Origin: a virus
Length of the DNA: 32,129 nt
Virus record (IMG/VR): IMGVR_UViG_3300030108_004562
Span: 19,144 to 51,272 of that record
Strand: one strand, 5' to 3'
Below are positions 6,384 through 22,394 of the stretch, one piece after another (within the stretch, counting starts at the first letter, position 1; every line of letters begins with the position of its first letter). Below the pieces are notes generated by a model. That model made no database searches. It had not been told where the DNA came from and saw nothing but the letters and a program-made list of their open reading frames with translations. Position numbers and translations under genes: made by a program.

Positions 6384-7157
6384 TTGAAAAAATTAAAAGA
6401 TACAATAACTATATTTCAAAATTTCGCTTGTACAAAAAAAGAGAGATTGGAGTTTGTCCAAGGTAACGTTCCTAAACTTGCAAAAGTTTGGGGAGAGTAT
6501 GAACACCACATAAATTATAATCATACAAAATATTTTGAAGACTACAAAAAACTTTACACAGAAAATTATCCAAATTTAACCATGTATAATGATTTAACTA
6601 AAGATTGGGTATTGATAGCACTATCCATGTTACAAGAAATTAAAACACCTTACATACTAAACTATGCTGAAGATTTTGAATGTAATATGTCGAGGGACGA
6701 ATGGGAAAATTTTGCAACAGAAGCTATATTTGAGAAACAAATAAAGTTTGTTAATCTTACAAAAATAAGAAAATACACGAGAGAAGTTTTTCCTGGTTAT
6801 GAGGATGGTAAACATGGTTATTACTATAAAGCCAAGGACTCACCTCCAACGAGAGTATCAGGTACAGGTATTTTTGAAAAAGAGTGGTACATAGAAATAT
6901 TAACAGAATACATGCAAAATAGACACAATCACATTAACTCAATTCCATATGGTTATCCTGAGTTACCTAATTGTCTTGAAGGATATCTTGATTATGAAAG
7001 AGGTATAAGAAAATATGGAGACATGCAATGTGGTATACCTAAGAAAGATATTTTTGTTCATTGGGACGCTGTTACTCAACAGGCTGAGTATGTAAATAAA
7101 CAAACAGGAAAACAAAAAGGTAATGCTAGAGACCACAATAATTATTGGGCGAGGTAA
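6384..7157 (+). CDS. Probable GT-A glycosyltransferase-like protein (TTG start)
   Basis: The 257-residue protein starts at a TTG, supported by GGGAG eight bases upstream; there is no nearby in-frame ATG that keeps the N-terminus. KDTITIFQNF followed by WVLIALSMLQEIKTPYILNYAEDFEC resembles the GT2/GT-A layout in which a helix leads into a beta strand and an acidic metal-binding turn. Here the turn is EDFE rather than DxD. The C-terminal half is rich in Tyr, Trp and His and contains a GTGIFEKEWYIEIL segment. It directly precedes sugar-modifying enzymes in the same unit. It could also be a non-catalytic relative, given the unusual acidic motif. Confidence 0.5.
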   Translation: MKKLKDTITIFQNFACTKKERLEFVQGNVPKLAKVWGEYEHHINYNHTKYFEDYKKLYTENYPNLTMYNDLTKDWVLIALSMLQEIKTPYILNYAEDFECNMSRDEWENFATEAIFEKQIKFVNLTKIRKYTREVFPGYEDGKHGYYYKAKDSPPTRVSGTGIFEKEWYIEILTEYMQNRHNHINSIPYGYPELPNCLEGYLDYERGIRKYGDMQCGIPKKDIFVHWDAVTQQAEYVNKQTGKQKGNARDHNNYWAR

Positions 7158-7160
7158 AAG

Positions 7161-7637
7161 ATGATAGACGGATTAAAAATATATCAACCAGATAGGTGGG
7201 AAGATTTTAGAGGTGACATTTACACAACTTGGGATACTGAAAATTATCCTAATTTAAATTGGAGATTAGATAAATTTTCACATTCAAGAAAGAATACATT
7301 AAGAGGATTACATGGAGATTTTGAAACTTGGAAACTTATTAATTGTGTTTATGGTAAATTTTATTTAGTAGTGGCTGATAATCGTAAGGACTCTCCAACA
7401 TATAAAGAATGGCAGTGGTTTGTATTATCAGCTGAAAATAGAAAACAAGTTTTAGTTCCACCTGGTTGTGGTAACGCTCATTTTGTTTTAAGTGATGATT
7501 GTACATTTCATTATAAATTAGCATTTGATGGTGAATATAATGATATTGAAAATCAATTTGTAATTAAGTGGGACGATTCAGACTGGAACTTTGAATGGCC
7601 ACATAGTAATCCAATATTATTTGGGAGGGATAAGTAA
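7161..7637 (+). CDS. dTDP-4-dehydrorhamnose 3,5-epimerase-like cupin (RmlC family)
   Basis: RmlC enzymes epimerise C3 and/or C5 of a 4-keto-6-deoxy nucleotide sugar. The protein has 158 residues, slightly shorter than the usual 175-185. It keeps the family landmarks in order: DFRGDIY near residue 15, the LRGLHGD motif with catalytic-type His51, KLINCVYGKFYLVVADNR, DSPTYKEW, LVPPGCGNAHFVLS and KWDDSDWNFEWP near the end. In most homologues the residue after GLH-x is Gln or Lys; here it is Asp-Phe, so specificity may differ (it could be a 3- or 5-epimerase only). It starts three bases after the previous stop with GAGG upstream, and the TPP-enzyme pair follows. Confidence 0.85.
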   Translation: MIDGLKIYQPDRWEDFRGDIYTTWDTENYPNLNWRLDKFSHSRKNTLRGLHGDFETWKLINCVYGKFYLVVADNRKDSPTYKEWQWFVLSAENRKQVLVPPGCGNAHFVLSDDCTFHYKLAFDGEYNDIENQFVIKWDDSDWNFEWPHSNPILFGRDK

Positions 7638-8248
7638 TGGAAAAAGTAAGAAATGTAAAATTGACACCAGAAGATTTAAAATCTTTTGAGGAAGAAGTTA
7701 AAGTTACATATGAAGCTGGTGGAATAAAAGCTCCAGTCCATTTAGCTGGTGGTAATGAAGAAAAACTAATTGATATATTTCAATATGTTCATCCAGATGA
7801 TTGGGTATTTGCTAGTTGGAGAAATCATTATCATGCATTATTACATGGTGTTTCAAAAGACACGTTAATGGATTTGGTTGTTCGTGGTAAGAGTATGAGC
7901 GTTTATTCAAAAGAACCAAAACTATATACTTCATCAATCGTGGGTGGTATCATTCCTATAGCACTAGGAACTGCTAAAGCACAGAAAGACAAAGGTAGTG
8001 AAAGAAAGACTTGGTGTTTTATTGGTGATATGACATTTGAAAGTGGTTTGTTTTATGAGGCTTATAAATATGCTAAGAATTTTAATTTACCACTACAATT
8101 TGTAGTTGAAGATAATAATATGAGTACAAACACACCAACAGATGAAACTTGGGGTGGAGTTAAACGAGATGTGCCTGATGATGTAATTTATTATAAATAT
8201 GAACGAGAGTTTCCTCATCACGGAACTGGTAATTGGGTTTTATTTTAG
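7637..8248 (+). CDS. TPP-dependent dehydrogenase/transketolase-like E1 alpha subunit, short
   Basis: The family binds thiamine diphosphate and cleaves C-C bonds next to a carbonyl. This protein is the pyrophosphate-binding (alpha) half: FASWRNHYHALLHGV, then SSIVGGIIPIALGTA, then the TPP motif beginning IGDMTFESGLFYEAY (G130-D131) and ending VVEDNN (N160-N161), about 30 residues apart as in GDG-x-NN motifs. It has 203 residues against roughly 320-360 for typical E1 alpha proteins, ending shortly after the TPP motif. The partner beta-like gene follows nine bases later. Set among sugar-nucleotide genes, it probably acts on a sugar or supplies a two-carbon unit, not in central metabolism; that is inference. 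Confidence 0.8.
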   Translation: MEKVRNVKLTPEDLKSFEEEVKVTYEAGGIKAPVHLAGGNEEKLIDIFQYVHPDDWVFASWRNHYHALLHGVSKDTLMDLVVRGKSMSVYSKEPKLYTSSIVGGIIPIALGTAKAQKDKGSERKTWCFIGDMTFESGLFYEAYKYAKNFNLPLQFVVEDNNMSTNTPTDETWGGVKRDVPDDVIYYKYEREFPHHGTGNWVLF

Positions 8249-8256
8249 GAGAAAAT

Positions 8257-8793
8257 ATGGAATATAAATATAAAGATGAATTAATAAGGTCTATGGAGTA
8301 TCTGTCAGAGAAAGATGACACAGTATTTCTTGGACAATCAGTATCATATAGTGGAAATGCTATATTTAACACTTTGAAAACTTTACCAGAGCATAAAAGA
8401 ATAGAACTTCCTGTTTTTGAAGAAATTCAAATGGGAATCTCTACAGGAATGGCACTTGAAGGTTATGTTCCAATCAGCTGTTATCCACGATTTGATTTTT
8501 TGATGAGAGCTATGGATTCACTTGTAAATCATTTAGACAAGTTTCAAGTGATGACGGAGAACAATTGGAAACCAAAAGTGATATTGAGAACATCAATTGG
8601 CTCTACAACACCATTGAATGGTGGTGTTCAACATACACAAGATTATACAGAATCATTTAAACAAATACTTAAAGAAGTTGAAGTGGTCATGTTAGATGAA
8701 CCTGAAGATATATTTGGAGAATTTCAAAAAGCTTATTTTAGAGATGGTTCAACGTTGTTAATAGAGCATGGGGATTACTATAATGATAAATAA
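8257..8793 (+). CDS. TPP-dependent dehydrogenase/transketolase-like E1 beta subunit, lacking C-terminal domain
   Basis: This is the pyrimidine-binding half of a split TPP enzyme. The ATG at 8257 has AGGAG upstream; an upstream TTG in frame at 8233 lies inside the previous gene and is not preferred. DELIRSMEYLSEKDDTVFLG opens the domain, LPVFEEIQMGISTGMALEGY carries the conserved Glu (E55) that activates TPP, and RTSIGSTTPLNGGVQHTQDY is the loop over the cofactor. It has 178 residues, about half the usual 325, and the transketolase C-terminal domain is missing. With its alpha partner it should form an alpha2beta2-like minimal enzyme. It overlaps the next gene by 11 bases. Confidence 0.8.
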   Translation: MEYKYKDELIRSMEYLSEKDDTVFLGQSVSYSGNAIFNTLKTLPEHKRIELPVFEEIQMGISTGMALEGYVPISCYPRFDFLMRAMDSLVNHLDKFQVMTENNWKPKVILRTSIGSTTPLNGGVQHTQDYTESFKQILKEVEVVMLDEPEDIFGEFQKAYFRDGSTLLIEHGDYYNDK

Positions 8794-9676
8794 AAATGTT
8801 TTAGTTACAGGTGCTAATGGTATGATTGGAAAACGATTAGTTGAACTACTTGAACATAAAAGGGCTAACGTTTATACCACAGATTTACCAAGTGATTTAA
8901 GGGATAGAAATGTTTGTGAGGAAGTCTGTAAGGGTATGGATATTGTATTTCACTTAGCGGGTATTAAGGGTTCACCACAAAGAACCATGGAACAACCAGC
9001 TAGTTTTAGTGTTCCCATGATTCAATTTAATGCTAACATGATTGAGGCAGCTTATAATGCTGGAGTGGAGTGGTTTTTATATACGAGTTCAGTTGGTGTG
9101 TACCACCCATCAGAGGTGTTTAAAGAGGATGATGTGTGGAAGACATTTCCATCTGAACATGATTGGGAAGCTGGTTGGGCTAAAAGAATTGGTGAAATGA
9201 ATGTTCAATCTTATATGAAAGAACATGATTGGAATAGATGTTCAATTGTAAGACCAGCTAACGTGTATGGAATAGACGATGACTTTGGAAAGTGGTCGAT
9301 GGTCATACCTTCGTTAATTAAAAAGGCATATGAAAATGATAAACTCGAAGTATGGGGAGACGGTTCACCGATAAGAGATTTGATATATGCCGAAGATGTA
9401 GCTCATGGTATGATTCACATGGTGGAAAATAAAGTCACAGAGCCTGTAAATTTAGCTAGTGGCACTGGTGTTACAATAAAAGAAATAGCAGAAATTATAT
9501 CTAAATACTTTGGAAAAGAAATTGTATGGGACACTACAAAACCCATGGGTGATATGAAAAGATTAATGGACACATCTAGAGCCGAGAGTTATGGGTTCAA
9601 ACCTGAAGTTAGTTTAGAGGATGGAATAATAAGGACAATAAAATGGTATGAAGAATATTTGGCAAAAAGAAAATAA
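8783..9676 (+). CDS. Extended SDR, NAD-dependent epimerase/dehydratase-like, catalytic Tyr replaced
   Basis: The 297-residue protein has NAD-binding GANGMIG (residues 10-16), an acidic D34 after strand 2, HLAGIKGS, and the TSSVGVY segment carrying the catalytic-type Ser/Thr. The usual Y-x-x-x-K reads A130-G-W-A-K134, so the tyrosine is absent while Lys is kept. Substrate-side motifs are normal: IVRPANVYG, VIPSLI, VWGDGSPIRDLIYAEDV. The start at 8783 (GGGG nine bases upstream) is preferred to 8768. A nearby paralogue has the same replacement, so this looks like a subfamily trait. It may bind or reduce a keto-sugar using another acid, or it may have lost activity. Confidence 0.82.
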   Translation: MINKNVLVTGANGMIGKRLVELLEHKRANVYTTDLPSDLRDRNVCEEVCKGMDIVFHLAGIKGSPQRTMEQPASFSVPMIQFNANMIEAAYNAGVEWFLYTSSVGVYHPSEVFKEDDVWKTFPSEHDWEAGWAKRIGEMNVQSYMKEHDWNRCSIVRPANVYGIDDDFGKWSMVIPSLIKKAYENDKLEVWGDGSPIRDLIYAEDVAHGMIHMVENKVTEPVNLASGTGVTIKEIAEIISKYFGKEIVWDTTKPMGDMKRLMDTSRAESYGFKPEVSLEDGIIRTIKWYEEYLAKRK

Positions 9677-10496
9677 AATTTATGACACTGGTATTCAAGA
9701 CTATAAGTATTTAGAGTCTAGTTACTTAATTTTTGATGGAGCTCATATGATTGACTCGACTTGGAATTTAACCTTTAGAAGTCAAATCTTGAGACTACTT
9801 AAAAAGAAAAAAGTAATAAGTTATAATTTTGATAAATTAGAGGAAATACACAATTATGTTTTAGATGACTCACTTTTAGAATATGACTTTGACTCAGGAG
9901 TAAATGGTATAACAAAAAAACTATACGATGTTGATGAAACCTTTATGAAGGTGTACAGAAATTTTATCATAGAACTATACAAAAGATTAAAATTTGATTT
10001 TTATTTTCAGGCTTATCCGACAATAAGAGTCCATTGTCCAAATGCAAAAAATCAAAATCACTATCCAAGATATCATAATGATTGTTTTTATGGTCATCCA
10101 CCTCAAGAAATGAATGTTTGGTTTTCTCTGACAGAAAATAAAAAATCAGGATTTCATTTAATAAATTTTGATAACAGTAAAAAGTGGTTTGAGGAATATG
10201 ACTACAACGTGGAAAAATTTATCAGTGAAGCAGTTAATAATGAAAAATTTAATAAACATGGGGATAGTTTATCCTTTGAAGTTAAATCTGATTTAAGTGA
10301 AATTTTTCTTTTTAATTCTCTATGTATTCATACAAATCAACCAAGGTTTGATGACTCTAGAGTTTCGATTGATATTAGAATTAATCCTGTAGAAAAATTT
10401 GTTGATGGTTATGTGGGTAGTGGAAGAATGAAAGCAGAGTTTAAACCTAATGGTAAATTTGGTTATTTTGAAAAATCAGTAAAGGAGATATTATGA
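9648..10496 (+). CDS. Fe(II)/2-oxoglutarate dioxygenase, StrG-like
   Basis: This 282-residue protein resembles the dioxygenase-like family that includes StrG of streptomycin biosynthesis. The predicted iron ligands are H143-N-D145 in PRYHNDCFYG and H228 in CIHTNQPRFDDSRVSIDIR, with R238 placed to bind 2-oxoglutarate. HPPQEMNVWFSLTEN sits between them, as expected for the substrate strand. It overlaps the preceding SDR by 29 bases; the only other ATG in frame is much further in (M34), so 9648 is kept although no clear Shine-Dalgarno sequence is seen. Its likely job is hydroxylating or oxidising a sugar or a glycan-linked group. Confidence 0.75.
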   Translation: MKNIWQKENKIYDTGIQDYKYLESSYLIFDGAHMIDSTWNLTFRSQILRLLKKKKVISYNFDKLEEIHNYVLDDSLLEYDFDSGVNGITKKLYDVDETFMKVYRNFIIELYKRLKFDFYFQAYPTIRVHCPNAKNQNHYPRYHNDCFYGHPPQEMNVWFSLTENKKSGFHLINFDNSKKWFEEYDYNVEKFISEAVNNEKFNKHGDSLSFEVKSDLSEIFLFNSLCIHTNQPRFDDSRVSIDIRINPVEKFVDGYVGSGRMKAEFKPNGKFGYFEKSVKEIL

Positions 10497-11434
10497 AAAT
10501 ATTAGTGACCGGAGCTAGTGGTTTAATTGGTTCCAACTTAGTTGAAACTCTACACAGACAAGGTTATGATGTAACGGCCACGTACAGAACAACATCGAAA
10601 ATAAACAATAAAGATATAAAACAAATTCAAGGCGATTTGTTAGATTCTAATTTTTGTGATGAGATAACTAAAAATGTGGATGTTGTTTTTCATTGTGCAG
10701 CAAATACATCAGGAGCTCACGTTATGTCTAGTTCACCACTAGTTCACGTCACACCTAACGTTATTATGAACTCACAGTTGATGGAGTCCTCTTACAAGTC
10801 AAACGTAAAGAAATTTATCTTTATGAGTAGTAGTGTCGTTTACCCATACACAGCTGAAAAACCAAACAAAGAGGATGAATTTGTTTTTGGTGACATATAT
10901 GAAAAATATTTTGCAGTGGGTTGGATGAAAAGGTACACTGAAAAATTGTGTGAAATGTATTCAAAGTTTTTAAATCCAACCATGCAGTGTATTGTGTTAA
11001 GACCAGCTAATATTTATGGCCCAAATGATAAATTTGATAATAGGTCACACGTGTTACCAGCCACAATAATGAAAGTCGTAAATAGACAAAATCCAATTGA
11101 AGTTTGGGGAGATGGGAAAGACATTAGAGATTTTATTCATATTGATGATTTTGTTAGAGCGTGTATTATGGTGATGGAAAAAGTTGATGAGTACAATGTG
11201 TATAATGTTGGTTCGGGTACAGGAAAGTCTGTAAACGATGTATTGTTTAATTGTATGGACATTGAAAATTATAAAACGGATGTTGTTTATAATTCTGATA
11301 AACCATCTATGATCCCAATCAGACTTTTAGATGTGTCTAAAATAAAAGAAGAGGTTGGTTTTGAAACTGAAATATCGTTAAAAAATGGACTAAAAAGCAC
11401 CATTGAATGGTATAAGGAAAATAAGGATGAGTAA
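10493..11434 (+). CDS. Extended SDR, nucleotide-sugar epimerase/reductase-like, catalytic Tyr replaced
   Basis: The 313-residue protein starts in ATGA with the previous gene. It has GASGLIG (7-13), GDLLDS, HCAANTSG, MSSSVVYP with the catalytic-type Ser, LRPANIYGPND and VWGDGKDIRDFIHIDDF. At the Y-x-x-x-K site it reads V142-G-W-M-K146, so the tyrosine is missing as in the SDR at 8783. The two share GW-x-KR and a similar C-terminal SLEDG/SLKNG plus TIxWYxE ending, and they are probably paralogues flanking the StrG-like dioxygenase. The overall fold resembles GDP-fucose-synthase-type 3,5-epimerase/4-reductases. Whether it is catalytic is uncertain. Confidence 0.82.
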   Translation: MKILVTGASGLIGSNLVETLHRQGYDVTATYRTTSKINNKDIKQIQGDLLDSNFCDEITKNVDVVFHCAANTSGAHVMSSSPLVHVTPNVIMNSQLMESSYKSNVKKFIFMSSSVVYPYTAEKPNKEDEFVFGDIYEKYFAVGWMKRYTEKLCEMYSKFLNPTMQCIVLRPANIYGPNDKFDNRSHVLPATIMKVVNRQNPIEVWGDGKDIRDFIHIDDFVRACIMVMEKVDEYNVYNVGSGTGKSVNDVLFNCMDIENYKTDVVYNSDKPSMIPIRLLDVSKIKEEVGFETEISLKNGLKSTIEWYKENKDE

Positions 11435-12062: not shown

Positions 12063-13019
12063 ATGAAAATATTAATCACAGGTATAACAGGTTTTGTTGG
12101 TAGTCATATGGCTGACTATATATTGGAGAACACCAATGATGAAATATTTGGTATCAAACGGTGGATGGAGGATACCAAGAATATAGACCACATCATTGAC
12201 AATCCAAGATTAACTTTATTTGGTGGAGACTTGTTGGATTATGCTAGTATTGATAGAGCTATTAGATTATCCAAACCAGACAAAGTGTTTCACTTTGCTG
12301 CACAAAGTTTTCCTGAAACTAGTTTTAAAAATCCAGTTATAACCTTGGAGACAAATGTAGTTGGAACAACTCATTTATTAGAGTCTATAAAAGTAAATGA
12401 ATTGAATCCTACAATAATTAGTGTCTCATCTAGTGAGGTTTATGGTATGCCAAAAGAAGACGAGATACCAATAAAAGAAACAAATCCAATCAGACCTGCA
12501 AATCCATACTCTATATCAAAGGTTGGTCATGACTTGATGTCTCAATATTATCATAATGCCTATGGTATGAAAATCATTACAACTAGAATGTTTAGTCACG
12601 AGGGAACTCGTAGAGGGAAGGAGTTTGCACTGTCATCATTTGCTCATCAAATAGCCAAAGGAGAAAAAAATGGTAACCACATTGTTAAACATGGAAATTT
12701 AGATTCAATTAGAACATACAACCACATAGATGATGCTATAGATGCATATTGGTTATGTTCAGAAAGTGATAGATTTGGTGAGGTTTACAATATAGGTGGT
12801 GATGAAACTTGTAGTGTTGGTGATGCTTTAGATACATTGATTTCAAAATCAGATAAATCATTTACAAAAGTATTAGATAAAGATAGAGTTAGACCAACAG
12901 ATATAACTTTACAAATACCTGACAGTTCTAAATTTAGAAAACATTTTAATTGGAAACCAAAACGAAAATTAAATGACATTTGTGACGACTTGTTAAATTA
13001 CTGGAGGAGTAACGTATGA
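12063..13019 (+). CDS. GDP-mannose 4,6-dehydratase-like SDR
   Basis: The 318-residue protein has the extended SDR layout with intact catalysis: GITGFVGSH (NAD site, 7-15), GGDLLDYASIDRAI, FHFAAQSFPETSF, SVSSSEVYG and PYSISKVG (Y-x-x-x-K). TRMFSHEGTRRGKEFALSSF parallels the RLFNHESPRRG-type loop that marks GDP-mannose 4,6-dehydratases, and RTYNHIDDAIDAYWL follows. It is somewhat short for that family (usually 325-370), and the related 6-deoxy-mannose reductase or a CDP/UDP-sugar 4,6-dehydratase remains possible. The product would be a 4-keto-6-deoxy sugar feeding the epimerases and aminotransferase nearby. It is the first gene after the promoter-like gap. Confidence 0.8.
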   Translation: MKILITGITGFVGSHMADYILENTNDEIFGIKRWMEDTKNIDHIIDNPRLTLFGGDLLDYASIDRAIRLSKPDKVFHFAAQSFPETSFKNPVITLETNVVGTTHLLESIKVNELNPTIISVSSSEVYGMPKEDEIPIKETNPIRPANPYSISKVGHDLMSQYYHNAYGMKIITTRMFSHEGTRRGKEFALSSFAHQIAKGEKNGNHIVKHGNLDSIRTYNHIDDAIDAYWLCSESDRFGEVYNIGGDETCSVGDALDTLISKSDKSFTKVLDKDRVRPTDITLQIPDSSKFRKHFNWKPKRKLNDICDDLLNYWRSNV

Positions 13020-13822: not shown

Positions 13823-14582
13823 AAATATAGTTTTCATACCTTGGATAAAAGATGATAGTAGAGCCACTCGTTCTCTACCATACAAGTATTCAATAGCTAG
13901 TTGGAAGAAATGGTGTAAAAAAAATGATTGTGACTTAGTGATAATGGATCAACCAATATGTCCTGTCAGTGAAATGAAAATAACTTGGCAAAGATATTAT
14001 GTTTTAGATATATTAGAAAACAGTGATATAGATTACGACCAAGTTCTTATGGTTGACGCTGACACTATAATTCATCCAGACACTCCGAATTTTTTTGAAA
14101 TGACTGAACACAAGTTTACAGCTGTACATAATGAGGGATGTTATGATTGGATATGTAGGAGCATTGAGAATTATAATAAATACTTGTTTCCAGGTGAAAT
14201 CCCATTTGGACTAAATGAATACATCAACACAGGTTTTTTAATCTTTAATAAAAAACATAAAAAGTTTCTAGAAGATTTTTTAAATTTTTATCATGAAAAT
14301 AAAGACACTATAAATGAGATTCAAAATACTTTTCATGTTGGAACTTGTCAATCTGTGATTCAATATTTTTTAAAGGTTAAAAATGTGGACTTGAAATTGT
14401 TACCATATGAATATAATATGTGTGATTTAGTTAGAAAAGAAATATTAGATGAGAGTTTTACAATGACAAAAGTCGGATGGATATATCATTACAATGCAAT
14501 ACCTAATAATCACGATGCCGAGTTAACCATGTATTGGATGAGAAAAACTTATGAACACCTTTATGGAGAGTTAGTTGACTAG
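13815..14582 (+). CDS. GT-A glycosyltransferase-like protein (DxD intact)
   Basis: This 255-residue tandem paralogue of the preceding gene keeps a complete acidic motif, VLMVDADTIIHPDTPNFFE (D81-A-D83). NEYINTGFLIFNKKHKKF corresponds to the acceptor-side strand of GT-A enzymes, where an N-x-G-x-x-x-F/I pattern is common. GAGGGG lies upstream and the start overlaps the previous stop by eight bases. The last codons overlap the next gene's TTG start. Substrate is unknown; adjacency to a dehydrogenase fusion suggests that the donor may be a rare sugar. Confidence 0.8.
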   Translation: MSKNIVFIPWIKDDSRATRSLPYKYSIASWKKWCKKNDCDLVIMDQPICPVSEMKITWQRYYVLDILENSDIDYDQVLMVDADTIIHPDTPNFFEMTEHKFTAVHNEGCYDWICRSIENYNKYLFPGEIPFGLNEYINTGFLIFNKKHKKFLEDFLNFYHENKDTINEIQNTFHVGTCQSVIQYFLKVKNVDLKLLPYEYNMCDLVRKEILDESFTMTKVGWIYHYNAIPNNHDAELTMYWMRKTYEHLYGELVD

Positions 14583-16320
14583 AGTAGGTTTAATTGGTTA
14601 TGGTAAATGGGGAAAAGTTCTTTACAAAAAACTAATAAATTTTTGTGACGTAAAATTTATTTGCACTAGTAGAGATGACTATAAGTCTAAATTAAAAAAT
14701 TTAGATTGGGTTGTTGTCGCAACTCCAGACGACACTCATTTTGAAATAGTTAAAAACTGTTTAAGAGCAGGTATCAATGTATTTTGTGAAAAACCACTCA
14801 CACCAACAGAAGAACAATCAAAAATTCTATACATGTACACTCAAATGTTTGGTGTTGATTTGTACGTAAGTGACGTACAAAACTATAGAGATTATGATTT
14901 TCAAATAATGAAAAACAATCTAGTGGAGAGAAGAAAAAGTGGTGGAGGTAATGTAGAGGACATTTTATATCGGTTGACTTATCACGATGTATATACGTTG
15001 TATGACCATATCAAAAACTCAGAGATATGTGATGTGAGTTTAATAGATAAATTCTCTAAATTAGAATTTGATGTAAGTTTTAATGACATAAATGTTAAAT
15101 TTTTATACAATTTAAATTCAGAGGAAACAGAGCATCATATAAACGGGTGTAGTTTAAGAGGTGATGATGATATTTTATCTAAAATGTTAATGAACGTATT
15201 TAGAGGTAACGTGGATTTTGAACTTAATAAAGAGATAACACTGTTTACCAATAAATTCATAGACACTTTAAATAAAAAACTGTTTAAAAAAATAGCGGTT
15301 GTTGGGGGTGGAGTGTTTGGATGTACATCAGCTTGGAAGATGGCAAAAGAGGGTTATGATGTCACACTGTATGAAAAAAACAATGACATAATCACTCAAG
15401 CCTCTAACATTAACCAATATAGATTACATAGAGGTTATCACTATCCAAGAAGTAAAGAGACCGCCAGACAATCAATATTAGGAGAGTCGAGTTTCATAAA
15501 AGAGTATGGAGATGCTATTATAAATGGGAATATTGAACATTATTATTGTATAGCAAGAGAGGATAGTTTGGTTACGGCTGAACAATATAAAAGATTTTTA
15601 GATGACATGAACTTACACTATGAAGAAAAAAAGCTTGACTTCATACGTGAAAATGTTGTAGATTTAGTAGTACAGGTAAATGAGTTTCTATTCGACTCAA
15701 ATAAACTAAGAAAAATATGTTGGGATAAATTGAAAGAATATAAAGTTAATGTTAATTTAAATACTGAATACACGAGTGATTCAACACATGATTATGTTAT
15801 TAACTCCACGTATTCAAACTTAAATAAATTAATACCAGTGGAAAGACAAAGGGATTATCAATTTGAATTGTGTGAAAAGCCAGTTATCAAATTACCAAAA
15901 CAATACAAAAATAAAAGTATCGTGATAATGGATGGTCCTTTCATGTGTATAGATCCTTACGGTGACACAGGTTTACACGTAATGGGAAATGTGGTTCATG
16001 CTATTCACTCTACTAACATTGGTAAGTTTCCAGAGTACGATTCAAAGTTTGACGAATTACTAAATAAAGGTATGGTGAAAAATCCATCAGTAACTAATAT
16101 TGATAAGTTTATGGAAACAGCTAGAAAGTTCTTTACAGACATTGATGAGGCGGAACATGTTGGTTCGATGTTTACGTTTAGGACAGTGTTACCCAATAGA
16201 GATAAAGATGATGCTAGACCTACTTTAGTTGAACAAACTGATAGTAATCAGTTCACTTTGTTTTCTGGTAAGATAGGAACATGTATTGATGCATCAGATA
16301 AAATTTTGGAGATGGTGTGA
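14575..16320 (+). CDS. Gfo/Idh/MocA-type dehydrogenase fused to an FAD-dependent oxidoreductase
   Basis: The 581-residue protein has two redox domains. Residues 1-235 are an NAD(P) Rossmann domain of the Gfo/Idh/MocA family: GLIGYGKWG, WVVVATPDDTHFEIV and FCEKPLTPTEE (E72-K-P). The substrate half that follows is shorter than in stand-alone members. Residues 237-581 begin with KKIAVVGGGVFGCTSAW (244-250) and E267 at the end of strand 2, the FAD-binding signature of DAO-type oxidoreductases, then NQYRLHRGYHYPRS. The TTG start (14575) has GGAG six bases upstream and overlaps the previous stop by eight bases. A keto- or amino-sugar oxidation is likely; the exact substrate is not visible. Confidence 0.78.
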   Translation: MTRVGLIGYGKWGKVLYKKLINFCDVKFICTSRDDYKSKLKNLDWVVVATPDDTHFEIVKNCLRAGINVFCEKPLTPTEEQSKILYMYTQMFGVDLYVSDVQNYRDYDFQIMKNNLVERRKSGGGNVEDILYRLTYHDVYTLYDHIKNSEICDVSLIDKFSKLEFDVSFNDINVKFLYNLNSEETEHHINGCSLRGDDDILSKMLMNVFRGNVDFELNKEITLFTNKFIDTLNKKLFKKIAVVGGGVFGCTSAWKMAKEGYDVTLYEKNNDIITQASNINQYRLHRGYHYPRSKETARQSILGESSFIKEYGDAIINGNIEHYYCIAREDSLVTAEQYKRFLDDMNLHYEEKKLDFIRENVVDLVVQVNEFLFDSNKLRKICWDKLKEYKVNVNLNTEYTSDSTHDYVINSTYSNLNKLIPVERQRDYQFELCEKPVIKLPKQYKNKSIVIMDGPFMCIDPYGDTGLHVMGNVVHAIHSTNIGKFPEYDSKFDELLNKGMVKNPSVTNIDKFMETARKFFTDIDEAEHVGSMFTFRTVLPNRDKDDARPTLVEQTDSNQFTLFSGKIGTCIDASDKILEMV

Positions 16321-17315
16321 TGAATTTAAATAAGAAATATATTATTGGAACTCATGTGATGTTTTATGAGATAGAAATGATTTCTGAATTTGTAGATAGT
16401 GTGATTAATAGTTGTGAATTAATTGATAACAAAACCAACGTGACGGTTGACTTGTTTTTCAATATGTCTGAGTTTTTTGAAAGAATAGATGAAACCCAAA
16501 TTACAAAAAAAGAATTGATAAATAAGTTTATGGTTGAAGTAAATAGATTAAATGACTTGGGAGTCAACGTAACTCATGAAGTGTATGAAAAAAATGAACT
16601 GTACACAATAGGCAGTTATCGAAGAGACTTAAATTATAAAAATTGTAATGAATATGACTTCGTGGTTTGGGGTGAAAGTGATTGTTTAATCCCCAAAGAA
16701 TTCTTTACTACATTAGAGACCGTTTCAAATTATACAGATGAAAATAATATTCACAGATACATTACTACTTTTGCAACTAGAAAAATGTGGGACTCTAGTT
16801 GGTCTATATTAGAGCACAATGATTTCGTAAACTCAAAGTTTTATGATATGAAAGAAGAGGGTTGGAAAACTGATAAATCAAGTATATGGTACACAATGTC
16901 AATTGATGAGATGGATGAGATAAATCAAAAATCAGATGACTTAGATATTAGGGTGTCCAACGAACCTAAATTTGATGGCTCTTTATTAGTAATATCATCT
17001 GATTTAATTAGGTCTGGTGTAAATATTCCACACTCTTGTTATGCTTGTGGTGAGGATGCATCTTTTGAAAGAATGTGTAAAATTATTATGGGTAAGTCGT
17101 ACGTTCAATTTATAGTAAAAAATATACTAAAAGTTCACAACAGAGTTCATCCTAAAAAAAGAGAGTATGTGTTGGGTGAAAAAGATTTTGAAAATGTAAA
17201 ACAAAAGAGAAAATCAAATAATCGTTGGCAACAATTTCACAAAATATGTGAACATAACTTATATAGTCTTGGTGAAAATCAAACAAAATTTAAAAGTGTA
17301 AAGGATTTGGATTAA
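16320..17315 (+). CDS. GT-A/GT2-like glycosyltransferase
   Basis: The 331-residue protein starts at ATG 16320, in TGATG overlap with the previous stop and with GGAG upstream; the GTG at 16317 is less likely. YIIGTHVMFYEIEMISEFVDSV is the first strand and helix, and YDFVVWGESDCLIPKEFF is the acidic donor motif (E-S-D in place of DxD). HSCYACGEDASFERMCKIIMG corresponds to the acceptor-side acidic motif of GT2 enzymes (E/G-x-D). It is longer than the small GT2 at 4321. The donor is unknown. It ends exactly where the kinase gene starts. Confidence 0.72.
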   Translation: MNLNKKYIIGTHVMFYEIEMISEFVDSVINSCELIDNKTNVTVDLFFNMSEFFERIDETQITKKELINKFMVEVNRLNDLGVNVTHEVYEKNELYTIGSYRRDLNYKNCNEYDFVVWGESDCLIPKEFFTTLETVSNYTDENNIHRYITTFATRKMWDSSWSILEHNDFVNSKFYDMKEEGWKTDKSSIWYTMSIDEMDEINQKSDDLDIRVSNEPKFDGSLLVISSDLIRSGVNIPHSCYACGEDASFERMCKIIMGKSYVQFIVKNILKVHNRVHPKKREYVLGEKDFENVKQKRKSNNRWQQFHKICEHNLYSLGENQTKFKSVKDLD

Positions 17316-18097
17316 TGGGAAAGTTTTTAGTAGTTGGTGATAGTTGTACCGACATACACATTTACGGAGAGTGTTCTAGATTAAGTCCAGAAGCTCCTGT
17401 TCCAATAATAAATCCAGTTAAGGTTGTTGAGAACGGTGGTATGGCAAAAAATGTAAAGTCTAATTTAGAAAAAATGGGTTCTGAAGTTGAAATCATAACA
17501 AATCCTAACAATATAAAAAAAACTAGATACATTGATGAACATACTAATGCAATGTTGTTAAGAGTTGATGAAAATGATTTCACAAATAGAGTTAGTCAAG
17601 ATAAAATTAAAAAAATAAAAAACAATTCATATAATGGGTTTAAATTTGATGGTCTTATAATATCAGATTATTGCAAGGGATTTTTAGAAGAAGAAGACAT
17701 AACTACGTTAATTAAAAATAACAAAATGGTATTTCTAGACACAAAAAAAATATTGGGTGATTGGATGTATGGGGTGGACTTTGTTAAAATAAATGAAAAC
17801 GAATTTAAAAAAACTGAAAAATATATAGATAGAGAAAAACTTAGAGATAAATTAATTATTACACGAGGATCTAAGGGGTGTCAATATTTAGAATCAGTGT
17901 ATCCAGTTCCTAAAGTGGACGGTGTGAAAGATTACTCTGGTGCTGGAGATACATTTTTAGCTGCATTTTCACATGAGTATATTAACGGACGTTCAGAAAG
18001 ACACATCAATCCATGGACATCTGTGTATTTAGCAATTGAATATGCACAAAAATGTGCAACAATCGTAGTTCAAAAACATGGAGTGGCAACAATATAA
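17315..18097 (+). CDS. PfkB-family sugar kinase, HldE/RfaE kinase-domain-like
   Basis: HldE-type kinases phosphorylate C1 of D-glycero-D-manno-heptose 7-phosphate. This 260-residue protein shows GDSCTDIHIYGECSRLSPEAPVPI, close to the GD-x-x-x-D, R-[IL]-SPEAPVP signature of that subgroup, then NGGMAKNVKSNLEKMG, DGLIISDYCKGFL, and the anion hole with catalytic Asp in DYSGAGDTFLAAF (D212). It is shorter than the usual 310-330 residue kinase domain. In most bacteria the nucleotidyltransferase domain is fused; here it is a separate gene (18474) with a cupin between. The start overlaps the previous TAA (TAATG), with AAAGGA upstream. Confidence 0.85.
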   Translation: MGKFLVVGDSCTDIHIYGECSRLSPEAPVPIINPVKVVENGGMAKNVKSNLEKMGSEVEIITNPNNIKKTRYIDEHTNAMLLRVDENDFTNRVSQDKIKKIKNNSYNGFKFDGLIISDYCKGFLEEEDITTLIKNNKMVFLDTKKILGDWMYGVDFVKINENEFKKTEKYIDREKLRDKLIITRGSKGCQYLESVYPVPKVDGVKDYSGAGDTFLAAFSHEYINGRSERHINPWTSVYLAIEYAQKCATIVVQKHGVATI

Positions 18098-18477
18098 TGG
18101 GACATAAAATAAAACCTCAAGTCTGTAAAGGGTGTAAAATTCCAAAGGGGTGGGGTGAAGAAATAGTTATAGAAAATAACGAGATGTATTGTGGTAAACT
18201 TTTAGTTTTCAAAGAGGGATGTAAGTTTTCAATGCATTATCATTTAATTAAAGATGAAACTTGGTACGTAAATGAGGGTTCATTTGTTTATAGGTGGATA
18301 GATACAGAAACTGCTGAAACTAAACAAGAGACTTTAACCAAAGGTGACGTGGTTAGACAAAGAGTTGGTCAACCACATCAATTAGAAGCCTTGGAGGATG
18401 GTGTTATATTCGAGGTCTCAACACAACACTTCGATGAAGATAGTTATAGAGTCTGGAAAGGAGATAGCCAAAAATGA
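18097..18477 (+). CDS. Cupin-domain protein, mannose-6-phosphate-isomerase-type-II-like
   Basis: The 126-residue single cupin begins at ATG 18097 in a TAATG junction; a longer frame to 18052 lies within the kinase gene. KGWGEEIVIENNEMYCGKLLVFKEGCKFSMHYH has the W-G-x-E start and H-x-H metal site, DETWYVNEGSF follows, and VRQRVGQPHQLEAL provides the last His. It resembles the C-terminal cupin of bifunctional phosphomannose isomerase/GDP-mannose pyrophosphorylase. Placed between two heptose-type enzymes, it may isomerise or epimerise a phosphosugar in the same route, perhaps standing in for an isomerase not seen here. It ends in ATGA with the next gene. Confidence 0.75.
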   Translation: MGHKIKPQVCKGCKIPKGWGEEIVIENNEMYCGKLLVFKEGCKFSMHYHLIKDETWYVNEGSFVYRWIDTETAETKQETLTKGDVVRQRVGQPHQLEALEDGVIFEVSTQHFDEDSYRVWKGDSQK

Positions 18478-18902
18478 AAGTATGGACTAATGGGTGTTTT
18501 GATGTATTACATAGAGGTCATTTAGATTTATTTAAATTTTGTAAACAACTAGCTGGTCATGATGGTGAGTTCATAGTTGGTGTGGATTCGGATGAAAAAA
18601 TTAAAAAAGACAAGGGTAAAAACAGACCAATAAACTGTTTACAGGATAGAATGGAAATGTTAAACTCTTTGATATATGTTGATAAAGTTATGCCATTCTC
18701 ATCAAGCTCAGAACTTGAAAAAACTATAAAGTGGATACATCCTTCAGTGATGGTTATAGGTTCAGATTGGAAAGATAAAGATGTCATTGGAAAAAAGTGG
18801 ACAGATAAGTTAATGTTTTTTGATAGAGTTGGTGACTATTCAACAACAAAAATTCTTAACACACACAGTAAGGGTGTAGATCCTTATTTACAAACGAGGT
18901 AA
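18474..18902 (+). CDS. Nucleotidyltransferase, HldE/RfaE adenylyltransferase-domain-like (HxGH)
   Basis: This enzyme couples a sugar 1-phosphate to a nucleotide; HldE-type enzymes make ADP-heptose. In 142 residues it has TNGCFDVLHRGHLDLF with the H13-x-G-H16 motif, VGVDSDEKIKKDKG, RPINCLQDRMEML and VMVIGSDWKDKDVIGK, all in the order seen in the HldE C-terminal domain, and it ends STTKIL before a short tail. The length matches a single-domain cytidylyltransferase-fold enzyme (HldC/GlmCTP type). AAAGGAG lies upstream. With the kinase at 17315 it makes a split HldE. CDP or GDP transfer cannot be excluded. Confidence 0.85.
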   Translation: MKVWTNGCFDVLHRGHLDLFKFCKQLAGHDGEFIVGVDSDEKIKKDKGKNRPINCLQDRMEMLNSLIYVDKVMPFSSSSELEKTIKWIHPSVMVIGSDWKDKDVIGKKWTDKLMFFDRVGDYSTTKILNTHSKGVDPYLQTR

Positions 18903-18904
18903 AA

Positions 18905-19309
18905 ATGCAAAAAAGAAAATATTTACCAACTTTAGCAGAGTTAGTGGATAGATTATCCATTATTCAGTTGAAAGAGGTATTCATAACGGAACATAAAGAG
19001 GAATATTCACAAGAGATAAAAGATATTGTTCATGACATAGATGTGATATTAAAAGATGAAAATGTTCAGTTAAGTGGAAAAGATGTAAGAGCGATTGTGG
19101 TGTTATCACAAATGAATCTTCACATATGGCACAACGAATCTGAAGCTAGAAAGGGAGTTAATGCTGGGGAGAATCTTTTATTAACTCATGGATTAAATGG
19201 AATAAGAAATACGTCAAAAAATATCATACAAGAAAACGTTGGTGGTAGGAAAGACTATAAAATAGATTGTATAGCAGATGAATTTAAAGATTGGGAGGTA
19301 AGTTGGTAA
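18905..19309 (+). CDS. DUF4254-like protein of unknown function
   Basis: The 134-residue, mainly helical protein opens with LPTLAELVDRLSIIQLKEVFI. That opening resembles DUF4254, a family I recall next to glycosyltransferase or heptosyltransferase genes in bacteria. The rest alternates acidic and basic helices (YSQEIKDIVHDIDVILKDEN) and has LNLHIWHNESEARKG-like polar segments without catalytic motifs that I can name. GAGG lies upstream and it starts two bases after the preceding stop. Its position inside the heptose-type module suggests a supporting role. The family assignment is from memory of the N-terminal motif and is uncertain. Confidence 0.55.
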   Translation: MQKRKYLPTLAELVDRLSIIQLKEVFITEHKEEYSQEIKDIVHDIDVILKDENVQLSGKDVRAIVVLSQMNLHIWHNESEARKGVNAGENLLLTHGLNGIRNTSKNIIQENVGGRKDYKIDCIADEFKDWEVSW

Positions 19310-21051: not shown

Positions 21052-21288
21052 ATGGAAAAGAATTGGGATGATATAAAAACTAATTTGTTGTCCTCAGTGG
21101 CTAAAGAGGGTAAATACGTAACACAAATAATTCATTTTAAGAATGGTTACAGAAAAACCATCCACGGAGTAGATACTTTAAGTATTGAACAAGGACAGTT
21201 TACTAAATTTAAGTGTAAAGATGGTAGATATATTTTAATTAATGACGACAATGTTTTAATGGTTGAGTGTTTTAAGGAGGACAAATAA
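21052..21288 (+). CDS. Small beta-rich protein of unknown function (78 aa)
   Basis: I do not recognise this protein. It has 78 residues, with alternating hydrophobic and polar residues (YVTQIIHFKNGYRKTIHGV, then FTKFKCKDGRYILINDDNVLMVE) that suggest a small beta sheet. There is a single Cys near the middle and another near the end. AAAGGA lies upstream, and its TAA overlaps the next gene's ATG (TAATG). It resembles small accessory proteins found between phage genes and is unlikely to be an enzyme. Confidence 0.6.
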   Translation: MEKNWDDIKTNLLSSVAKEGKYVTQIIHFKNGYRKTIHGVDTLSIEQGQFTKFKCKDGRYILINDDNVLMVECFKEDK

Positions 21289-22394
21289 TGGATATAAGAG
21301 AGAACATGTTACCAGTGTTAGCACCACAAGGTGGTAAAGAGGAAATAAAAGCACTAACTGAGGTTATTGAAAGTGGTTGGTGGGGTAAAGGTCCTAAAGT
21401 TGCAGAGTTTGAAGAAAAGTTTGCAAAGATGGTTGGACATAAATATGCAGTAGCTGTTACGAGTGCATCTCATGGACAAGATTTAGTAATGAAAGCATTA
21501 GGTTTTAAAGGTATTGATGTTATTAATCCAGCTATATCATTTATAGCCACCGCAATGATACCATTATGGAATAACTTCACGACAAACATAGTTGACGTTA
21601 AAAGAGATACTTTGTGTATAGATCCTGAGGATGTTGAAAGATACAAAAAACCGAATAGTGAAGTTTTAATTGCAGTTGATGAAGCTGGAGTCTTGGCAGA
21701 TTATGAGGGATTAAGAAAAGTATTTGGTGGATTTATCCTTGAAGATTGTGCTCACAGTTGTTGGACACCTGGTGCAGGTTTAGGTGGTGATTGTGCAGTC
21801 TGGTCATTTCAAGCTGTTAAAACTATGCCGATGGGTGATGGTGGGATGATAACAACGGATGATAAGGATTTGGCCGATAAGTGTAGGGAGATGACTTGGT
21901 TTGGAGTATCATCCACTTGGAGTAGAGCTTCAGGTCAAACACCAGGTTATGCTTGGGACTATCAAGTTGATATACTTGGGTATAAATATTATATGATTGA
22001 TATAATGGCAGCAATTGGTTTAGAACAAATGAAAAAGTTACCTAAACATTTAGAGTTTAGAAGACACGTTCAGTCACGATATAATAAAGAATTAAATTCA
22101 ATTATTGAACGACCACCTCATTCAGAAACGGTTCAATACTATGTTCCAAGAGTGCCGAGTGAACATAGAGATAAATTGATTGATTACTTGGCTGATAAAA
22201 AAATACACACATCAGTTCACTTTAAACCTTTATACAAGTATGGACCTTTGTTACAAGACAGAGATTATCCTGTGTGTGAAACTGAATGGACAAAGTTAAT
22301 ATCACTACCTTGTCACAATAGAATGAAAGAGGAAGACATTGATTATGTGGTGTATTGGGTTAACAAGTATTTTGAGGAGACAGATTTTGTTTAA
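21288..22394 (+). CDS. DegT/DnrJ/EryC1/StrS aminotransferase
   Basis: These PLP enzymes aminate keto-sugars on nucleotide diphosphates. The 368-residue protein has normal length. VIESGWWGKGPKVAEFEEKFA is the substrate-entry segment, AVAVTSASHGQDL binds the cofactor phosphate, FILEDCAHSCW follows, and SFQAVKTMPMGDGGMI carries the PLP-binding Lys (K178). SVHFKPLYKYGPL near the end is the family's phosphosugar-side motif. AAGGAGG lies upstream. Together with the dehydratases at 12063 and 23001 it should give an amino-deoxy sugar. It has no acetyltransferase neighbour that I can recognise, so later N-acylation is uncertain. Confidence 0.9.
   Translation: MDIRENMLPVLAPQGGKEEIKALTEVIESGWWGKGPKVAEFEEKFAKMVGHKYAVAVTSASHGQDLVMKALGFKGIDVINPAISFIATAMIPLWNNFTTNIVDVKRDTLCIDPEDVERYKKPNSEVLIAVDEAGVLADYEGLRKVFGGFILEDCAHSCWTPGAGLGGDCAVWSFQAVKTMPMGDGGMITTDDKDLADKCREMTWFGVSSTWSRASGQTPGYAWDYQVDILGYKYYMIDIMAAIGLEQMKKLPKHLEFRRHVQSRYNKELNSIIERPPHSETVQYYVPRVPSEHRDKLIDYLADKKIHTSVHFKPLYKYGPLLQDRDYPVCETEWTKLISLPCHNRMKEEDIDYVVYWVNKYFEETDFV

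Follow-up and report, generated by a model that had tools for sequence, protein, structure and literature searches.

Sugar branching by enzymes that use thiamine diphosphate (ThDP, also TPP) is already known from E1-type alpha/beta pairs. Those of the alphaKADH2 group are reported to branch sugars with pyruvate as the donor, on the basis of feeding and knock-outs for aldgamycin, in vitro reactions of KbDH with ketones, and proposals for AviB1/AviB2 and Pau11/Pau12 (PMC12247030, PMC4425429). A minimal ThDP enzyme that consists solely of a PP chain and a PYR chain is likewise known, in the decarboxylase branch, from ComDE and RhiEF (PMC12141560). Here we describe a phage gene pair, alpha and beta, that is an E1-type ThDP pair reduced to its PP and PYR domains. 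The genes lie in a window of 32,129 nucleotides, the whole stretch that was analysed, which corresponds to bases 19144-51272 of the 51,272-base viral record IMGVR_UViG_3300030108_004562. We read the pair as a candidate carbon-carbon ligase that would place a two-carbon unit on a sugar intermediate, most likely on the ketone of a nucleotide-activated 4-keto sugar (probability roughly 0.45). That the pair is a ThDP enzyme of a sugar pathway, and not a pyruvate dehydrogenase (PDH), we consider probable.

Described features of E1 enzymes are a GDX25-30N motif, a conserved Glu and a transketolase C-terminal (TKC) domain (PMC2831816). Alpha matches the Pfam family E1_dh over residues 15-170 (59.2 bits, cut-off 22), and its residues G130-D131 to N160 form a GD-X28-N motif that fits this pattern. 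Beta matches Transket_pyr over residues 15-171 (30.7 bits, cut-off 27) and holds the activating Glu at E55. For beta the list of open reading frames starts at TTG 8233 (186 aa); we took ATG 8257, which stands behind an AGGAGA box and gives 178 aa. Neither protein matches Transketolase_C at E≤0.1 in Pfam, and the TKC family PF02780 is absent from the viral record that contains the window. An initial annotation, made from the letters of the window, had stated that the pair keeps the TPP motif and activating Glu, lacks the extra parts of normal E1 enzymes and lies between an RmlC-like epimerase and a short-chain dehydrogenase/reductase (SDR); the matches given here and in Table 1 bear out all three statements. 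Both subunits are also matched nearly end to end by PHROG_34187, a family of unassigned function, in which alpha covers positions 2-199 (4e-53) and beta 236-405 (3.7e-30) of 405; its cyanophage relatives are fused, whereas the window has two genes.

Alpha and beta were each modelled singly with AlphaFold2 (pTM 0.90 and 0.91, respectively). By structural superposition, residues 5-203 of alpha lie on residues 31-269 of human PDH E1alpha (193 residues, 2.2 Å, Z 20.3), with alpha a net 40 residues shorter across the common span, and residues 5-202 lie on residues 45-276 of Geobacillus (G.) stearothermophilus E1alpha (1w85_A; 191 residues, 2.5 Å, Z 17.7). Beta 1-178 covers residues 1-179 of the 324 residues of E1beta (1w85_B; 173 residues, 1.7 Å, Z 24.6); as modelled, it is a PYR domain with nothing beyond, and ends where the TKC domain would start. 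The split-gene transketolase (6yak/6yaj), in which the ThDP site is also built from two chains, matches more weakly than E1 (alpha Z 14.6, beta Z 18.0) and, unlike the phage beta, carries a TKC domain.

In the G. stearothermophilus E1, the lipoyl domain is engaged by an inner loop (203alpha-212alpha) and an outer loop (275alpha-293alpha); H128beta works on pyruvate, and H271alpha takes part in the transfer to lipoate (PMC2663715). Residue 202 of alpha pairs with residue 276 of 1w85_A in the structural alignment, so alpha ends where the lipoyl-engaging outer loop starts. The deletion between alpha and E1 is not bridged by hhalign; if the structural alignment runs without a gap near its end, it is T197, not H194 or H195, that faces the catalytic H271alpha. 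No Biotin_lipoyl match was found in the record of the window or in eight related viral records; such records may be incomplete, and the host might supply the E2. Those eight records hold one TKC match, on a separate transketolase gene. Compared with the E1 components of pyruvate and branched-chain 2-oxoacid dehydrogenases, the phage pair shares the fold, the ThDP motif, the activating Glu and an equivalent of His128 in beta, but alpha is without the outer loop and C-terminal part and beta is without the C-terminal domain. On these models, the pair is an E1-type enzyme trimmed of the acyl-handover parts that are used with a lipoyl domain.

Conservation was counted over 122 distinct alphas and 118 distinct betas, in the residue numbering of the window and with gapped rows left out of each column. 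H35, E41, S86, G111, G130, P152, E158, P193 and H194 of alpha are invariant, and N40, D55, R62, H64 and N160 are conserved at 99% (120-122 distinct rows); in beta the invariant residues are E50, P52, E55, G64, R78, F81, H92, H126 and E170 (118 distinct rows). H126 of beta aligns with the QH of human E1beta, and E55 with its PISE stretch. Comparison of the window with the related locus L004 gave nonsynonymous and synonymous rates (dN and dS) of 0.050 and 0.648 for alpha and of 0.078 and 0.757 for beta, counted from codon 3. Both genes are under purifying selection (dN/dS about 0.08-0.10 in this comparison), and on this, together with the conservation, we rejected chance open reading frames.

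The pair is more than a chance find, since relatives that carry the two genes turn up repeatedly among viruses and cells. In an annotated phage collection, alpha matches eight records and beta nine, with both in six records at ≥75% length. The Synechococcus phage S-SM2 and the Prochlorococcus phage P-TIM68 carry alpha-beta fusions, annotated as transketolase central region-containing protein; Prochlorococcus locus L041 has a fusion too, and an uncultured 735-kb phage (L003) has alpha and beta as separate genes. A first viral scan gave 22 loci, and an alignment-based scan, in which one gene may yield two stretches, found at least 579 relatives among 600 candidate stretches, from which 80 loci were kept. 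The cellular scan returned at least 32 loci from 594 candidate stretches. Twenty of these are minimal (L027-L045, L057), from Pelagibacter, SAR116, Parcubacteria, Taylorbacteria, Omnitrophota, Planctomycetes, Desulfobacterales, Flammeovirgaceae, Prochlorococcus, archaea and others, and 12 are longer E1 proteins or a short match. Of the 115 loci that have a minimal alpha, 111 also have beta, a count that includes near-duplicates and the locus of the window itself (L026); the misses are L019, L085, L107 and L122.

Whole-genome searches found the minimal alpha in 22 of 297 Pelagibacter-family genomes and in 2 of 251 Prochlorococcus-family genomes. A plasmid search matched 319 records, and among the 15 matches listed the hits were to E1 at <35% identity or were unannotated. 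A quick tree of 101 rows (nine from Pelagibacter; sequences already under another locus id and pieces <150 aa excluded) separates the minimal alphas from five longer E1 rows (SH-aLRT 95). Its starred branches force at least four changes of virus label, with 39 of 98 inner branches left open.

Loci were joined at 95% alpha identity, which left 77 viral and 19 cellular loci besides the window. An RmlC-like epimerase is the gene next upstream of alpha in 44 of the 77 viral loci and lies within 6 kb in 62. When a gene was instead chosen at random in each locus, the upstream count averaged 4.1 (s.d. 2.0, maximum 13 in 2000 shuffles), a comparison that does not amount to a probability because the loci are related. 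In the RGxH motif of the RmlC-like protein, H51 is kept in all of the 74 aligned rows that have a letter there; we take it to be among the active-site residues. An SDR cluster (cluster 2, representative L004:10804-11742) is found in 73 of the 77 viral loci, the window member being its second SDR. Within the DNA examined, an HldE-like kinase occurs in 24 and a nucleotidyltransferase in 23 of these loci. In the window, the 4,6-dehydratase-like SDR, the DegT/StrS protein and the HldE-like kinase and nucleotidyltransferase fall within 14 kb, and a 4-keto sugar nucleotide could be the product of the first of these (Table 1).

Table 1. Glycan-related genes of the window, with coordinates counted from its first base
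Feature	Coordinates	Strand	Evidence and remarks
Alpha, minimal E1-type PP domain, 203 aa	7637..8248	+	E1_dh 4.3e-16; AlphaFold2 pLDDT 92.8; ATG 7637 to stop 8248
Beta, PYR domain alone, 178 aa	8257..8793	+	Transket_pyr 3e-7; AlphaFold2 pLDDT 94.3
RmlC-like sugar 3,5-epimerase	7161..7637	+	dTDP_sugar_isom 1.4e-34; one base in common with alpha start
SDR, NAD-dependent epimerase/dehydratase-like	8768..9676	+	Epimerase 1.3e-39; first ATG 8768, alternative ATG 8783 possible; best NCBIfam GDP-L-fucose synthase, 150 bits, below cut-off 500
Second SDR	10493..11434	+	Epimerase 6.5e-54
4,6-dehydratase-like SDR	12063..13019	+	GDP_Man_Dehyd 2.5e-75; best NCBIfam dTDP-glucose 4,6-dehydratase, 161 bits, below cut-off 365
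PfkB kinase, HldE kinase-domain-like	17315..18097	+	PfkB 9.6e-17; rfaE_dom_I 3.2e-32, under cut-off
HldE nucleotidyltransferase-domain-like	18474..18902	+	rfaE_dom_II 6.4e-29, under cut-off; phrog_7878 2.1e-44
DegT/DnrJ/EryC1/StrS aminotransferase-like	21288..22394	+	PF01041 5.3e-76

The cellular relatives have a comparable setting. We fetched 20 stretches, 19 from the 22 matching Pelagibacter-family genomes and one (L165) from the Prochlorococcus family; they were not thinned, and the gene order of L162 and L164 equals that of L038 and L039 from the first cellular scan. In 14 of the 20, nearly all from the Pelagibacter family, alpha is followed in turn by beta, a GHMP kinase and a DegT/StrS protein. 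Across the set, this kinase is present in 16, an SDR in 16, DegT in 17, and a B12-radical SAM protein, an RmlC-like protein and a nucleotidyltransferase in 13 each. The closest profile is HddA for the kinase (138 bits, cut-off 600) and HddC for the nucleotidyltransferase (172 bits, cut-off 300); with both scores under the cut-offs, these heptose names are leads only. Related gene sets occur in Parcubacteria (L045), Omnitrophota (L035), a gammaproteobacterium (L032) and Flammeovirgaceae (L057). Homologues are thus found in sugar clusters of viruses and cells, and not only in central-metabolism operons.

Several of these clusters contain further ThDP enzymes. A second, fuller E1 beta/alpha pair (305/279 aa) stands directly upstream of the minimal pair in 7 of the 20 cellular stretches (L152, L153, L155, L157, L158, L160, L164), and an acetolactate-synthase-like ThDP enzyme of about 565 aa is encoded in five, all of the Pelagibacter family (L151, L152, L153, L155, L160); four loci have both extras, which makes three ThDP enzymes in one glycan cluster. 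A split transketolase with a TKC domain sits beside the minimal pair in Parcubacteria (L045, 12602-14262). In viral locus L006 (10089-14552), genes 2-6 kb from the minimal pair code for a split transketolase that has a TKC domain and, next to it, for an acetolactate-synthase-like ThDP enzyme and an aldo/keto reductase. Radical SAM-type proteins lie between or beside beta and alpha in the bacterial or archaeal loci L040, L042 and L044 and, by eye, in the 735-kb phage (L003, 8944-9996).

The initial annotation had suggested that the pair attaches a two-carbon unit to a keto-sugar to make a branched sugar, and we find this idea plausible. The ThDP and 2-oxo acid parts are kept, the parts that meet the lipoyl domain are lost and no lipoyl domain was found, so the acceptor should be a small molecule. 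The gene neighbours point to a sugar, and a 4-keto sugar nucleotide would suit those that are RmlC-like and 4,6-dehydratase-like; the papers that we set beside this argument are PMC4425429, PMC4753412 and PMC10338323. The annotation had further placed the TPP enzymes of yersiniose biosynthesis in another TPP family. YerE of that pathway is a single protein of the decarboxylase superfamily and resembles our pair in the proposed chemistry, a C2 transfer from pyruvate onto a 4-keto sugar nucleotide; sugar branching is, however, not confined to that family, as the E1-type alphaKADH2 pairs show. Like the phage genes, those form an alpha/beta pair among nucleotide-sugar genes, and C2 transfer from pyruvate to a ketone has been proposed for them and, for KbDH, shown in vitro. 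This precedent strengthens the branching idea and lowers its novelty.

From the alignment with E1 and from the gene neighbours we infer the assembly, residue roles, donor, acceptor, order of steps and product along the following lines. The pair would probably form an alpha2beta2 heterotetramer that holds ThDP between the PP domain of alpha and the PYR domain of beta. E55 of beta would activate ThDP, D131 and N160 of alpha would bind the Mg-diphosphate, and the active site would be lined by H126 of beta and perhaps also by the PH-x-G-x-G tail of alpha. A 2-oxo acid, most simply pyruvate, would be decarboxylated to a two-carbon carbanion and this passed to a small sugar acceptor, most likely a 4-keto sugar nucleotide shaped by the 4,6-dehydratase-like and RmlC-like enzymes. 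After reduction or amination, this branched or lengthened sugar would become part of a glycan, either that of the infected host or that of the virion.

A number of findings weigh against a branching ligase. The adjacency of the two genes is not strict: among the 71 viral loci whose beta is a separate gene, 40 have it within 150 bases of alpha, 29 have it 0.7-7 kb downstream and 2 have it upstream (of the remaining viral loci, two have a fusion and four have no beta in the DNA examined). Some relatives (L036, L039, L057) have Glu in place of D131, and the last 13 residues of alpha were modelled with low confidence (block pLDDT 67 and 55). Pau11/Pau12, an E1-type branching pair, is full length at 325/345 aa and comes from antibiotic clusters (PMC4425429), in contrast to the 203/178 aa of the phage pair, which is without TKC and sits in glycan clusters. 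The RmlC-like gene lies within 6 kb in only 3 of the 19 distinct cellular loci of the first scan, and the later 13 of 20 come mostly from one bacterial family. Kinase and nucleotidyltransferase of HldE type occur together in only 15 of the 77 viral loci, and heptose-type neighbours of this sort also fit an action on the sugar before its nucleotide activation. Branching could moreover belong to the other ThDP enzymes, as such enzymes are encoded within some of the same clusters (L006, Pelagibacter family).

The main rival is chain extension ahead of the kinase and nucleotidyltransferase, in which the pair would act on an aldose, free or phosphorylated, much as transketolase or DXP synthase does. 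The lengthened product would go on to an HldE/HddA-like kinase for phosphorylation and to an HldE/HddC-like nucleotidyltransferase for activation. Such genes recur near the pair in separate lineages: they are annotated in S-SM2 and P-TIM68 (the P-TIM68 kinase being of the PfkB type) and are seen in the window too, and the GHMP kinase directly follows beta in the 14 cellular stretches noted above. We nevertheless think chain extension rather unlikely. Both subunits are closer to E1 than to transketolase, the RmlC-like neighbour is left unexplained, and in L045 and L006 the roles seem distinct, because a separate split transketolase with a TKC domain stands beside the minimal pair there. Potential support from cyanophage annotations of phosphoheptose isomerase (GmhA) is not borne out by Pfam. 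Two of the three proteins so labelled (L001 19998-20306 and 21639-21968; L002 15474-15812) have no match and the third has a weak HAD phosphatase match, so that the annotation looks doubtful, and we dropped GmhA as evidence for a heptose.

It is quite improbable that the pair is, like ComDE or RhiEF, a non-ligating 2-oxo acid decarboxylase or acyl supplier, whose aldehyde or acyl product would serve to decorate a sugar later on. The minimal build of these enzymes is the same, as noted at the outset, and structures of AzcB/AzcC are among the Foldseek matches of beta. The latter superpose on beta with a TM-score of about 0.64, compared with up to 0.87 for E1beta; alpha reaches 19.9 bits with TPP_enzyme_C, under the cut-off of 21.9, and beta has no match to TPP_enzyme_N in Pfam. 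By sequence the phage pair sides with E1 and not with the decarboxylase branch of ComDE and RhiEF.

Profiles do name the pair PDH E1 alpha and E1 beta, and a pdhB call from viromes (K00162) is listed under glycolysis and the tricarboxylic acid (TCA) cycle in one study (PMC3877843), a reading in which the pair would be an auxiliary PDH E1 that boosts the central carbon metabolism of the host. The scores are far under the curated cut-offs (95 of 394 bits for alpha and 51 of 321 for beta), the outer loop and the TKC domain are missing, no lipoyl domain was found in the record of the window or in the eight related viral records, and the relatives lie in glycan clusters in cells too. Three of the eight cellular genomes searched (G002, G003, G004) encode, at another place, an E1 alpha of greater length (frames of 339-365 aa), so that the minimal gene is an extra paralogue there; in the other five no longer E1 alpha of similar strength was seen, a result that counts neither for nor against this reading. 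We rejected this central-metabolism reading as very improbable on domain loss, gene context and the longer E1 alpha. A degenerate or non-enzymatic E1 remnant, to which two catalytic-domain-only proteins with large deletions might point, is scarcely credible and was rejected on the low dN/dS and the catalytic residues kept in 118-122 rows, as well as the recurrence across viruses, bacteria and archaea.

We return to the pair as a sugar carboligase. Tentatively, at a little under even odds, it would be part of a family, so far unrecognised, of minimal E1 carboligases without TKC in ocean phages and in bacteria and archaea of many phyla, which would make branched or higher-carbon sugars for surface glycans and to which viral transketolase, pdhA and pdhB labels would in part refer. 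In the literature searched, with few subscription papers and parts of others, we found no description of an E1-type pair that lacks TKC and the outer loop in phages or glycan operons. The virome pdhB calls counted under glycolysis and the TCA cycle may include such minimal genes (PMC3877843). One ocean catalogue of auxiliary metabolic genes excluded contigs with lipopolysaccharide islands, and minimal pairs could be hidden from it for that reason (PMC11360552).

If the family assignment is right, these genes would represent the smallest working form of E1-type ThDP enzymes, with no acyl-transfer parts and a free acceptor, and could be of use where tertiary alcohols or rare sugars are to be made. 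Some genes of viruses labelled 'pyruvate dehydrogenase' or 'transketolase' would no longer be read as central metabolism, and phages would edit host or virion glycans by a chemistry otherwise known from antibiotic sugars. Unusual sugars would also be indicated in cells of the Pelagibacter family and in phages, which is testable through a single operon.

We read the source virus as a T4-like phage from the 19 kb that precede the window, which encode a UvsX-like recombinase, a DnaB-like helicase, DNA polymerase, clamp, clamp loaders, exonucleases and ribonucleotide reductase; on these genes we also rejected cellular contamination of the record. Judged by its gene content, the window is largely a glycan-gene region of the phage. 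Pelagimyophages have a comparable variable region rich in lipopolysaccharide genes (PMC7029224). The same record encodes, before the window, a trypsin-like protease with a dockerin type I domain (L168:7674-9023; Trypsin 2.7e-60, Dockerin_1 5.8e-9). Within the window, the proteins at 6384-7157 and 9648-10496, which flank the RmlC-alpha-beta-SDR block, have no Pfam match at E≤0.1, and a protein of 581 aa at 14575-16320 combines an NAD-binding part of Gfo/Idh/MocA type with an FAD-dependent oxidoreductase part. Another protein, of about 132 aa, belongs to a cluster found in 40 viral loci and in none of the cellular loci examined, and its copy in L084 (L084:6198-6593) matches no Pfam family at E≤0.001; the window gene at 18905-19309 was placed in this cluster by eye.

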